Source: Bacteroidia bacterium (GTDB lineage: Bacteria > Bacteroidota > Bacteroidia > Cytophagales > JAAEPT01). Taken from it: a stretch of 64,000 bases of DNA. A model generated the notes under the pieces. It was not told the DNA's origin and did not search any database. It worked only from the letters and a program-made list of their open reading frames with translations. The DNA lies in NCBI GenBank assembly GCA_030431525.1, contig JAUIJC010000014.1, positions 1-64,000 on the forward strand, written 5' to 3'. Positions 14,526-63,110 of the stretch are shown here, in pieces (positions within the stretch are counted from its first letter, which is position 1; the number at the start of each line of letters is the position of its first letter). Position numbers and translations under genes: made by a program.

Positions 14526-14837
14526 TAGGAAAATGGGTAAAAGGGTTAGAGGAAAATGTGTTAAGGGAAGGAGCTGAATGCGGTTTAAAATCGGATACAA
14601 GTATCAAGACACAAGATTTTCCTCACTTTTGAAGTCGTAGGGCACAAGGCCCTACGCAACGGAACAGCATATGTAAGGCCCATACTGTCCATAACGGTAG
14701 GTTTTATACCTACCGAAACTTGGAAATCTTTCTCTTAATACCTGTGTCAAAAACTCACCGAAGGTCGTTTCCGTCACTTAATTAGAGGACATATTTAATA
14801 AAAATTGGCCCGAATACAAGTAATACCTGTAGTTGCC
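14526..14837. other. Intergenic region with composite palindromic repeat
   Basis: This 312-base spacer separates divergently oriented genes (alpha-2-macroglobulin and hydrolase). Apart from the composite repeat at 14636-14715 I see no gene, no RNA of a known family and no clear -7 box. Confidence 0.6.
14636..14715. repeat. Composite three-hairpin repeat, copy 1
   Basis: Hairpin A (14636-14656, arms CGTAGGGC/GCCCTACG), a 38-base spacer with its own weak ACAG...CTGT pairing, and hairpin B (14695-14715, arms CGGTAGGT/ACCTACCG). The order, spacing and spacer sequence match a second copy at 55335-55415. Confidence 0.8.
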
Positions 14838-15566
14838 ATGAAGTTTTTTGAAAAGCTCTTAAAAGTGTTGAATCCCGTGGATTATTCTTTGTTCGAAAAA
14901 GCGCATTTCAATCAAGCATTGCCTTGCCGTCTATTGCGTCCCCAAACGATTGAGGAAGGCAAGAAATACCCGCTTGTGTTATTGCTTCACGGGTCTGGAG
15001 AACGAGGTTCGGATAATGAAAAACAACTTAGGCATGGAGCGAGTTATTTCCTCGATGAAAAGCGAAGAAATGAAAACCCCTGTTTTGTGTTGGTGCCCCA
15101 ATGTCCAGATGATGAGGCTTGGTGTAATATTCAGGAGAAAGGGAATGGACGGTTTGAATTTCCCTTTTCAGACCAGCCACGGGAACCGATGCGCTTGGTG
15201 TTGAATCTCTTGGATGAGCTGTTGAAAAATGAGCCGATTGATACCGAACAACTTTCAGTCATTGGGATTTCAATGGGAGGGATGGGACTGTTCGATTTGC
15301 TCCTGCGAAGACCCAGCATGTTCAAAAATGCAGTGGCCATTTGTGGTGGTGGAAATCCTGAGTTGGTCCATCGCTACGCCACAGGCACTTCATTCCAATT
15401 GTTTCATGGAAGCAAGGACAGTGTAGTGGCGCCAAGCCATTCACGGGAAATGGCTGAGGCCTTGAAATCAGCGGGAGCGAAGGTGGATTTTGTGGAGTAT
15501 CCCGAGGAGGGGCATGATTGCTGGGAGAGGGTGTTTGGGGGCGTAGGGCACAAGGCCCTACGTTAA
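14838..15566 (+). CDS. Alpha/beta hydrolase, feruloyl-esterase/carboxylesterase-like
   Basis: Start taken at the ATG (MKFFEKLLKV); an upstream TTG would add 11 residues. The 242-residue protein is a complete alpha/beta hydrolase: HGSGERG (residues 51-57, oxyanion loop), nucleophile Ser145 in GISMGGMG, Asp194 in HGSKDSVV and His226 in EGHDCW. This set matches the PHB-depolymerase/feruloyl-esterase and phospholipase/carboxylesterase group; substrate is probably a small ester. There is no signal peptide, so it should be cytoplasmic. The last seven residues (VGHKALR) and the stop codon are encoded by a palindromic repeat that also occurs at 14636-14656, so the true ancestral C-terminus was probably different. 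Confidence 0.8.
   Translation: MKFFEKLLKVLNPVDYSLFEKAHFNQALPCRLLRPQTIEEGKKYPLVLLLHGSGERGSDNEKQLRHGASYFLDEKRRNENPCFVLVPQCPDDEAWCNIQEKGNGRFEFPFSDQPREPMRLVLNLLDELLKNEPIDTEQLSVIGISMGGMGLFDLLLRRPSMFKNAVAICGGGNPELVHRYATGTSFQLFHGSKDSVVAPSHSREMAEALKSAGAKVDFVEYPEEGHDCWERVFGGVGHKALR
15545..15565. repeat. Hairpin A repeat inside the end of the hydrolase gene
   Basis: The same 21-base palindrome as at 14636-14656 (CGTAGGGC...GCCCTACG family), here without the rest of the composite element. It is read through by the hydrolase frame and provides its last codons. Confidence 0.7.
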
Positions 15567-15613
15567 GGATGGAGGGGTATGATTGCTGAAGGAGGGTGTT
15601 TGGGAAGTTGGTG

Positions 15614-35753: not shown

Positions 35754-35778
35754 GTAGACAAGGCATTGCCTTGTCTAC
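35754..35778. repeat. Palindromic repeat (GTAGACAAGGCA family), copy 1
   Basis: Perfect 12-bp arms around a single T, ten bases after the gshB stop. A related palindrome is at 63082-63110. Confidence 0.75.
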
Positions 35779-54163: not shown

Positions 54164-54319
54164 GTGAGTACTAAGTACGGAGTACAGAGTCCTCACAAAA
54201 CTGGCGCAAGCGTCTGCTTGTGCCCAATATTTTTAAACCTCAATGAAGAGGCTGGTTGTTGGCACAAGCGGACGCTTGCGCCAGAAGTAGTGCTCCGTAC
54301 TTTATTCAGTACTTCTCAC
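54164..54319. repeat. Nested palindrome overlapping the ribF stop
   Basis: Inner arms of 24 bases (54201-54224 and 54261-54284, one G-U pair, CTGGCGCAAGCGTCTGC core) are enclosed by outer arms (GTGAGTACTAAGTACGGAG near 54164 and its imperfect complement near 54291-54319). The outer right arm runs into ribF and provides its last codons and stop. Confidence 0.75.
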
Positions 54320-55243
54320 CAATATTTTCAAAGCCTCCACTTTGTCATTGTGGAGTTGTTCAATCAATGCTTCCAAAGAGGGAAATTTCTGTTCGTTGCG
54401 AATCCTTCCGATAAAGGCCACGGTGATTTCCTCGTCGTAGAGTTTTTCACGGCAGTCGAACAGGTGGGCCTCAATGCTGATATGCTTCTCGTTGTCCACG
54501 GTTGGGCGCATGCCGATGTTGAGCATTCCGCCGTAAGGCTTCTTTCCGATAAGCGCTTGGATGGCGTACACGCCAATGGCTGGAACCAGCTTTTCAGAGA
54601 TTTCAGGCTGAATATTGGCCGTCGGGAAACCGATGGTTCGCCCGAGTTGCTTGCCTTTTACCACCGTTCCTGAAAGGCTGTATGGCCGTCCCAGATACTT
54701 GGTGGCCTGTTCCACCTGACCCTCTTCCAGCGCCTTTCGGATTTTGGTGGAGCTGATGCCTACGTTATCCACATCATGGCGTGGAATCTCCTCAATGGCA
54801 AAAGGGAAAAGGTCTTGGTTGGCTTTGAGGTAATCAAATCCACCCTCGCGGTTGCGTCCAAAACGGTGGTCGTAGCCAATCACCAGTTTGTGGGTATGCA
54901 GGCCATCCACGATGACCTCCTGAATAAACTCTTGAGAGGTTTTCTTGGAGAACTCCTTGGTGAAGGGAAGGATGACCAAATGGTCAATGCCGTATGCTTT
55001 TAACAATTGAATTTTCTCCTGCAAGGTGGACAACAGCTTGAGCTCACAGGCGTCGCCTTGCAACACAAAGCGGGGGTGAGGCCAAAAGCTGAGCACAACG
55101 GTTTCCCCATCGCATGCTTTTGCGATTTCCTTGAGGCGATCAAGGATGGTCACGTGGCCGAGGTGAACACCGTCGAAGGTGCCACTGGTCACGACCGGAC
55201 GTTGGATGGATGGGATGGATGCTAAACCGTGGTGGACTTGCAT
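54302..55243 (-). CDS. ribF: Bifunctional riboflavin kinase/FAD synthetase
   Basis: The 313-residue enzyme converts riboflavin to FMN and FAD. The nucleotidyltransferase domain has T-S-G-T-F-D-G-V-H-L-G-H (residues 19-30) and G-Y-D-H-R-F-G; the kinase domain has R-T-I-G-F-P-T-A-N-I (about 203-212). Length fits RibF. The last residues (V-R-S-T-E) and stop lie in a palindromic repeat. An exact TAACTTTG box ends only 4 bases upstream of the ATG, so the mRNA may be leaderless. ribF is followed on the same strand by gldC and preceded by truB, a common Bacteroidota order. Confidence 0.95.
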   Translation of the reverse strand: MQVHHGLASIPSIQRPVVTSGTFDGVHLGHVTILDRLKEIAKACDGETVVLSFWPHPRFVLQGDACELKLLSTLQEKIQLLKAYGIDHLVILPFTKEFSKKTSQEFIQEVIVDGLHTHKLVIGYDHRFGRNREGGFDYLKANQDLFPFAIEEIPRHDVDNVGISSTKIRKALEEGQVEQATKYLGRPYSLSGTVVKGKQLGRTIGFPTANIQPEISEKLVPAIGVYAIQALIGKKPYGGMLNIGMRPTVDNEKHISIEAHLFDCREKLYDEEITVAFIGRIRNEQKFPSLEALIEQLHNDKVEALKILVRSTE

Positions 55244-55310: not shown

Positions 55311-55337
55311 AAAACGTTCGAAAACGTTCGAAAACGT
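55311..55337. repeat. Short tandem repeat AAAACGTTCG
   Basis: A 10-base unit AAAACGTTCG repeated 2.7 times, immediately before the composite repeat at 55335. Confidence 0.7.
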
Positions 55338-55415
55338 CGGGTGTAAAACCCGACGCTACGGAGACAGCCTATGCGAACTACACGCTGTCACTAACGGTAG
55401 GTTTCATACCTACCG
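55335..55415. repeat. Composite three-hairpin repeat, copy 2
   Basis: Hairpin A (55335-55355, CGTCGGGT.../...ACCCGACG), middle hairpin GACAGC...GCTGTC in the 39-base spacer, and hairpin B (55395-55415, CGGTAGGT...ACCTACCG). Hairpin B and the middle words match copy 1 at 14636-14715; hairpin A has changed in its stem but keeps its shape. Confidence 0.8.
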
Positions 55416-55425
55416 TACCCAACGA

Positions 55426-56121
55426 TTATTGCTCAACCTTTTCTTGCTGTTGCTCCTTGATGGTTTCCACGAATTTAGGGAGCTCCCAAGCGTCCTCCAG
55501 CTTGAACTCCCCGATGCGGGTACGCACCAGTTTGGACATGTAGGCGCCAGAGTCCAAGGCCTTACCGAAGTCACGCACCAAACTACGAATGTAGGTGCCC
55601 TTGGAGCACACTACTCGGAACTCCACACGCGGGAAGTCGATATTGGTGATTTCAAACTCGGAGATGGTGATGTCGCGAGGCTTGATTTCAACCTCCTTGC
55701 CTTTACGCGCCACCTTGTACATGCGTTGGCCGTCCACCTTGATGGCCGAGTGCATAGGCGGGACTTGGGAAACAAGTCCTGTGAATTTCTCGGTGGTTGC
55801 GTGGATCATCTCCTCGGTGATGTGGGAGACTTCAAAAGTGGCATCCACTTCGGTTTCCATATCGATGGAAGGGCGGGTTTCGCCCAACACCAACTCACCT
55901 GTATATTCCTTTTCTTGGGCCTGATAACCCTCGATGGATTTCGTCTTTTTGCCGGTGCAGAGAATCAAAAGGCCTGTGGCCAAAGGATCCAAGGTGCCAG
56001 CGTGCCCCACTTTTTTCACCCGAACGGTGTTTCGTACCTTCTTGACCACGTCAAAGGAGGTCCATTCCAACGGCTTATCAAACAACAAAACTTCTCCTTC
56101 GGCGAAATTATAGTCTTTCAT
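55426..56121 (-). CDS. truB: tRNA pseudouridine(55) synthase
   Basis: The 231-residue enzyme makes pseudouridine 55 in the T-loop of tRNA. Motifs: LLFDKPLEWTSFDVVKKVR, the catalytic Asp45 in V-G-H-A-G-T-L-D-P-L-A-T-G-L-L, and the Y-T-G-E-L-V-L-G-E-T-R-P-S substrate loop. The C-terminal PUA extension is absent or minimal, as usual for short bacterial TruB. It is encoded upstream of ribF on the same strand with a 182-base spacer holding repeats. A TATTTTTG box on the minus strand lies about 120 bases before the start. Confidence 0.95.
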   Translation of the reverse strand: MKDYNFAEGEVLLFDKPLEWTSFDVVKKVRNTVRVKKVGHAGTLDPLATGLLILCTGKKTKSIEGYQAQEKEYTGELVLGETRPSIDMETEVDATFEVSHITEEMIHATTEKFTGLVSQVPPMHSAIKVDGQRMYKVARKGKEVEIKPRDITISEFEITNIDFPRVEFRVVCSKGTYIRSLVRDFGKALDSGAYMSKLVRTRIGEFKLEDAWELPKFVETIKEQQQEKVEQ

Positions 56122-63081: not shown

Positions 63082-63110
63082 GTAGAGACAAGGCACTGCC
63101 TTGTCTGTAC
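63082..63110. repeat. Palindromic repeat (GTAGACAAGGCA family), copy 2
   Basis: GTAGAGACAAGGCA, a single C, TGCCTTGTCTGTAC; the central 10-bp arms match copy 1 at 35754-35778. Confidence 0.75.

Follow-up and report, generated by a model that had tools for sequence, protein, structure and literature searches.

What is the unit of about 80 bases that occurs at two distant places, 14636-14715 and 55335-55415, in the 64,000-nucleotide stretch of a Bacteroidia genome analyzed here (the window), and why are its hairpins kept? The first-pass annotation described three hairpins, A, a middle ACAG...CTGT pairing and B, and attributed compensating differences in hairpin A to selection on secondary structure rather than simple copying. 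Both units are present as described, in sequence and in coordinates. As single-stranded DNA the two units fold much better than their dinucleotide shuffles, with z values of -4.4 and -5.6 and 0 of 200 shuffles folding as well. Their parts are as follows.

14636-14656, plus strand: hairpin A of unit 1, a REP of subtype T1, CGTAGGGC-ACAAG-GCCCTACG.
14657-14663, plus strand: left REP tail of unit 1, CAACGGA, reading TCCGTTG on the opposite strand at the hairpin 5' foot.
14664-14688, plus strand: spacer of unit 1, with the middle pairing ACAG/CTGT at 14664-14667/14685-14688.
14688-14694, minus strand: right REP tail of unit 1, TCCATAA on the plus strand, at the foot of hairpin B.
14695-14715, minus strand: hairpin B of unit 1, a REP of subtype T2R, CGGTAGGT-TTTAT-ACCTACCG on the plus strand.
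55335-55355, plus strand: hairpin A of unit 2, a REP of subtype T2L, CGTCGGGT-GTAAA-ACCCGACG.
55356-55362, plus strand: left tail of unit 2, CTACGGA, reading TCCGTAG on the opposite strand, the GTAG tag at the hairpin foot.
55363-55389, plus strand: spacer of unit 2, with the middle pairing GACAGC/GCTGTC at 55363-55368/55384-55389.
55395-55415, minus strand: hairpin B of unit 2, a REP of subtype T2R.

Each unit is an inverted doublet comprised of hairpin, conserved tail, spacer, tail and hairpin, so that A and B are one kind of part facing in opposite directions. Hairpin A has an 8-bp stem and a 5-nt loop in both units. Unit 1 joins a T1 left arm to a T2R right arm and is a hybrid doublet, and unit 2 pairs T2L with T2R. 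As the two left arms come from two subtypes, the compensating difference seen in hairpin A is mostly one of subtype, T1 against T2L, set within stems that do covary across the genome.

The unit belongs to a large family. A BLAST search with unit 1 gave 47 matches in the genome (4,236,503 bases in 75 contigs), and a covariance model (R1) representing a single arm found 89 REP copies at E ≤ 0.01 in the same 4.24 Mb, which excludes the possibility that only the two window copies exist. The same model returned 7 matches in all from 58 other genomes of the order, with between 0 and 3 in each, and the single same-family genome had no match; comparison of 89 copies with 7 indicates a lineage-specific repeat. 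Based on the covariance-model and pattern searches, the family comprises about 90–100 copies with a fixed doublet spacing. In nearly all arms the stem is 8 bp long, the loop 5 nt, and the tail is near NWAYGGA, which on the opposite strand reads TCCGTAG, TCCATAG, TCCGTAA or TCCGTTG at the hairpin 5' foot. The subtypes are defined by their stems.

T1: CGTAGGGC/GCCCTACG, 39 copies.
T2R: CGGTAGGT/ACCTACCG, 24 copies.
T2L: CGTCGGGT/ACCCGACG, 22 copies.

The tag at the foot follows the tail, being GTAG for T2L arms with CTACGGA, ATAG for arms with CTATGGA (T2R and some T2L) and GTAA or GTTG for T1 arms; the T1 and T2R tails differ from the canonical GT[AG]G. Neighboring arms are inverted with tails inward in 28 of 34 pairs, and the arm starts lie 55–56 bp apart in 17 doublets, with a more variable spacing of 56 to 146 bp in T1 pairs. 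Like REPs, the arms are palindromic, high-copy, extragenic and lineage-specific, and like REPINs they form inverted doublets of characteristic spacing. A hairpin-forming spacer with compensatory changes, a further REPIN feature, was not found: the spacer hairpin carries no covariation signal across the doublets, and its outer positions pair at 2.2 of 6, compared with 2.5 when partners are swapped. The middle ACAG...CTGT hairpin, real in the two window copies, is refuted as a conserved part of the family. The units are therefore labeled REP doublets of REPIN plan, not REPINs in every respect, a reading that the sequence strongly supports.

Structure matters to these elements. Over 53 distinct arms, pairing holds in 98.1% of stem cells, compared with 25–41% after the partner column is shifted. 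The covariation score of these arms is 0.465 versus 0.151 when shuffled, with changes on both sides in four of the eight stem pairs, in a comparison where the shuffle control keeps relatedness, the arms were partly picked for pairing and much of the signal is the split between subtypes. T3 palindromes (see below), which misalign with REP arms, were excluded from the alignment. Double changes within one subtype are also present (CGTCGGGT, CGTTGGGT, CGTCAGGT and CCGAGGGT, each with a matching 3' arm), and among the matches of the model both T1 and T2L contain compensated changes of their own. The genome-wide covariation of REP stems is strong and extends well beyond the two window copies. The proposal of structural selection is upheld to this extent, but its second half, the contrast with simple copying, is not supported for a family of this size and fixed spacing, whose elements have been copied.

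Three Y1 transposases, RAYT-1, RAYT-2 and RAYT-3, are encoded in the genome. RAYT-1 (L026:3150-3590) is an intact protein of 146 aa with the motifs DHIH and YIRKQKTHH. A T1 REP abuts the 3' end of its gene and a T1 doublet lies upstream, with a chance of about 3e-4 per gene for both gaps. The REPs on both of its sides are of a dispersed kind, T1 having 39 copies genome-wide. The protein matches IS608 TnpA structures (E 5e-11, spanning the HuH and Tyr motifs) and scores 73.6 for IS200/IS605, above the cut-off of 55. RAYT-2 (L049; 150 aa, YIKNQHAHH) is subclass 1.2-like and has a tails-inward doublet directly downstream, CAAAGGAC-TCC-GTCCTTTG-CTAAGGAGAACC...GGTTCTCCATAG-CGATGGAT-GTCA-ATCCATCG, with tails TCCTTAG/TCCATAG; the tails are common to T2, whereas the stems are different. 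The two genes thus carry the subclass 1.2 signature of HuH with Y---Q--HH in short proteins present in two copies, and named relatives of the transposase are mostly from Bacteroidetes. With the NCBIfam RAYT model (NF047646) RAYT-1 scores 35 and RAYT-2 22.9, below the cut-off of 80, and for this reason neither is filed in the RAYT family; their resemblance to class 2 RAYT systems lies in arrangement and presumed mechanism. RAYT-3 (L050, REP_Tyr_transpos) passes the same cut-off with 87.7 and is flanked by an unlike palindrome, TCAAGTC-TCCC-GACTTGA. Three TCAAGTC-TCC[CT]-GACTTGA hairpins surround RAYT-3 in locus L050 (G000:C36:55000-61000), at 2273, 2946 and 4044, and are probably RAYT-3's own REP family.

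The association of subclass 1.2 genes with hairpins is also observed in other genomes. The sample consisted of the genomes of the order (27 of 59 with a match, own included) and 36 named loci from GTDB genomes. Of 56 subclass 1.2 genes, 15 are bordered left and right by matching hairpins no more than 200 bp away, versus 1 of 94 other ORFs at the same loci (Fisher p 1e-6), a real-ORF control that replaced a first one with random placements (22 of 57 versus 12 of 608). The nearest relative of RAYT-1, a G004 gene with 43% identity, is bordered by TCCATAGCG and TCCGTAGCG hairpins, which have the same tail and another stem. In G016, a REP with the tail CATGTTTATAGC has 19 copies, five around the subclass 1.2 gene and 14 elsewhere; a reversed-pattern control gave zero in G016, and most other genomes contained no match to the G016 pattern. 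Exact copies of the flanking hairpins are few in G003 (5) and G009 (2), where the hairpins look more like the ends of an element than like a dispersed family, and the small number of dispersed copies for the G009/G007 and G003 patterns weakens the general claim. The linkage is therefore real and the dispersal uneven. The pattern for G044 gave 8 copies, but these hairpins do not lie beside the subclass 1.2 gene read in that genome (L197). In the same genome (L193-L196), tails-inward doublets (CGACTCC/CGACCCC) lie in the middle of longer inverted repeats such as AACGATCCGCCCTTATACACTT...AAGTGTATAAGGGCGGATCGTT, a layout suggestive of insertion into terminator-like palindromes.

Judging from this linkage, mobilization by a subclass 1.2 Y1 transposase is likely. 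We assign a probability of about 0.78 to the units being REPINs in the sense of non-autonomous elements partnered with a REP-associated Y1 (HuH single-strand) transposase, and infer that the enzyme moving them is RAYT-1 or RAYT-2, its paralogue. When the DNA becomes single-stranded, for example on the lagging strand, every arm would form its 8-bp hairpin, with the TCCGTAG/TCCATAG/TCCGTAA-type tail at the 5' foot serving as guide. The small transposase, as a dimer, would bind hairpin and tail and cleave beside the arms, and the doublet would be rejoined elsewhere, in single-stranded intergenic DNA. These cutting steps are borrowed from work with IS608 and with TnpA-REP enzymes from E. coli, Stenotrophomonas and Marinomonas (PMC8266576). 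Recognition limited to hairpin-forming copies would leave compensated stem changes and nearly fixed tails, and exchange of arms between subtypes could yield hybrids such as 14636-14715. Three observations speak against this reading: the T2 stems of both window units flank no transposase in this genome, exact hairpin copies are few in G003 and G009, and the T1 and T2R tails depart from the canonical tag.

A since-lost transposase, or RAYT-3, could instead have spread the doublets, with RAYT-1 merely linked to T1 and T2 left as an orphan. The T2 subtype, present in both window units, lies beside no transposase in this genome, and only RAYT-3 of the three scores above the NCBIfam RAYT cut-off. 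However, the palindrome flanking RAYT-3 is a different one, T2 resembles T1 in stem length, loop length and tail, and the T2 tails are shared with the RAYT-2 doublet and the G004 relative, which makes this explanation unlikely.

The placement of the repeats bears on a second explanation, in which the hairpins are kept for a role in transcripts, as terminators, mRNA-stabilizing 3' ends or small RNAs, and their spread is secondary. By crude ORF calls, 49 of the 54 sites that could be classified fall between genes, in a sequence that is 86% coding, with 31 of the 49 between tandem, 12 between convergent and 6 between divergent genes. The relevant features of the window are these.

54302-55243, minus strand: ribF.
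55426-56121, minus strand: truB, with unit 2 directly after its stop codon.
15542-15562, plus strand: a single T1 REP at the 3' end of an alpha/beta-hydrolase ORF (14838-15566).

Unit 2 occupies the gap of 182 bp between truB and ribF, genes that overlap by a few bases in two relatives, G001 and G004. The T1 tail TTAAGGA (15563-15569) provides the hydrolase ORF with its TAA stop. A role in transcripts would fit the strong RNA folding of both units (z -3.8 to -6.3), the position of unit 2 and the predominance of sites between co-directional or convergent genes. Against it, unit 2 has no U-run, and a search for an intrinsic terminator there found none; the divergent sites include unit 1; orientation to transcription is inconsistent (2 of 6 doublets and 4 of 14 singles, small numbers); and the REP family is missing from the same-family genome. 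Rfam gave no family match to the units, its only match being a tRNA. Taken together, a primary function in RNA appears improbable.

The hairpins are themselves targets of insertion and exchange. An IS4-family element (DDE_Tnp_1; NF033592 at 114.2 bits, slightly below the cut-off of 115) with ends TTTTGAACACGAGTGG was located as follows.

G000:C35:1-1373 (L135): IS4-family element.
Contigs C6, C9, C12, C15, C26, C30, C31, C41, C45 and C52: further IS ends.
Contigs C64, C67, C71 and C73: further IS ends.

All 18 of 18 IS ends abut the hairpin loop of a T2L or T1 arm at GGG-N7-CCC, and T2R, which is without GGG/CCC, is never hit. In C35, two IS ends stand around one 7-nt loop, accompanied by a short internally deleted remnant. 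Most other IS ends are near contig ends, so the IS is probably behind many of the assembly breaks. The arms could be passive repeats, remnants or miniature derivatives of this element, since the IS end partly resembles the outer flank and stem of some arms (TTTCGAAAACGTCGGG), on the left side of T2L and of a part of the T1 arms, and C35 holds a deleted remnant. This is highly improbable, because the IS copies interrupt pre-existing hairpins rather than bound them at all 18 ends, the T1 and T2R flanks are mostly unconserved, and nothing in the IS corresponds to the conserved tail or to the spacing of the doublets. The same preference is known from ISRm22, an IS4-family element with 10 of 10 copies inside Sinorhizobium meliloti REPs (PMC1525189); both are found only within REP hairpins, whereas the genome and REP family differ and insertion here is at the GGG-N7-CCC hairpin loop.

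A palindrome, TCCGCCAGCTGGCGGA, with 14 copies in this genome and one in 58 relatives, substitutes the hairpin tip with outer stem and tail retained in 10 of 10 copies read, nine in a T2L-like and one in a T1-like context. These tips and the T3 palindromes of the window are positioned as follows.

L023:2050, L030:1971, L031:2088, L036:2125 and L047:1977: TCCGCCAGCTGGCGGA tips.
L120:1948, L120:2802, L161:668, L161:1843 and L021:2674: TCCGCCAGCTGGCGGA tips.
35756-35776, unstranded: T3 palindrome AGACAAGGCATTGCCTTGTCT, between convergent genes.
63086-63106, plus strand: T3 palindrome with the tail GTACGGT.

T3 (AGACAAGG-N5-CCTTGTCT) has 31 genomic copies, some with a REP-like TACGG tail, and its membership in the same family as the T1 and T2 REPs is uncertain.

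REP doublets are widespread in bacteria, and their movement in cells is still mostly inferred. A transposase subclass that was published without REPs sits among REPs in several Bacteroidota genomes, which provides enzyme-substrate pairs that can be tested outside Proteobacteria (RAYT-1 with T1, RAYT-2 with its doublet, and the G016 pair) and opens the question of whether REP domestication has arisen more than once. Tentatively, and at somewhat less than even odds, the subclass 1.2 Y1 enzymes, close relatives of true IS200/IS605 enzymes, may be a separate Bacteroidota REP-mobilizing lineage that arose independently of the class 2 RAYTs, with a tag code of its own, TCCRTAR-type in this genome and CATGTTTATAGC-type in G016, and with mosaic doublets that exchange arms and hairpin tips.

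Compared with the REPINs and BIMEs of Pseudomonas fluorescens and E. coli (PMC3116915, PMC6006769), the units share inverted doublets with tails inward, fixed spacing, intergenic location, compensatory stem changes, lineage specificity and a REP-flanked transposase gene. In contrast to them, the T1 and T2R tags are non-canonical, left and right arms differ consistently in sequence, the spacer hairpin is not kept, hairpin tips are exchanged and the transposase is of subclass 1.2 rather than class 2. The published GTAG-tagged REP dimers, among them the hybrid ones of Stenotrophomonas maltophilia (PMC3733652), are alike in having a hairpin with an unpaired tag, TT dimers with the tags inside, and hybrid dimers of two families, whereas here the GTAG tag is found only on T2L arms; that survey assigned GTAG repeats to Proteobacteria, Cyanobacteria, Chloroflexi and the PVC group. 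The transposases agree with TnpA subclass 1.2 of the 2018 TnpA-Y1 survey in the Y---Q--HH motif, a length of ~150 aa and low copy number, a subclass found mostly in Bacteroidetes and Cyanobacteria (PMC6006769). The table of that survey lists no associated structures for subclass 1.2, and its automatic search required GT[AG]G (PMC6006769). The description of subclass 1.2 as lacking structures does not fit the 15 of 56 genes with flanking hairpins, against 1 of 94 control ORFs, and in the genome analyzed here REPs both flank the gene and are dispersed.
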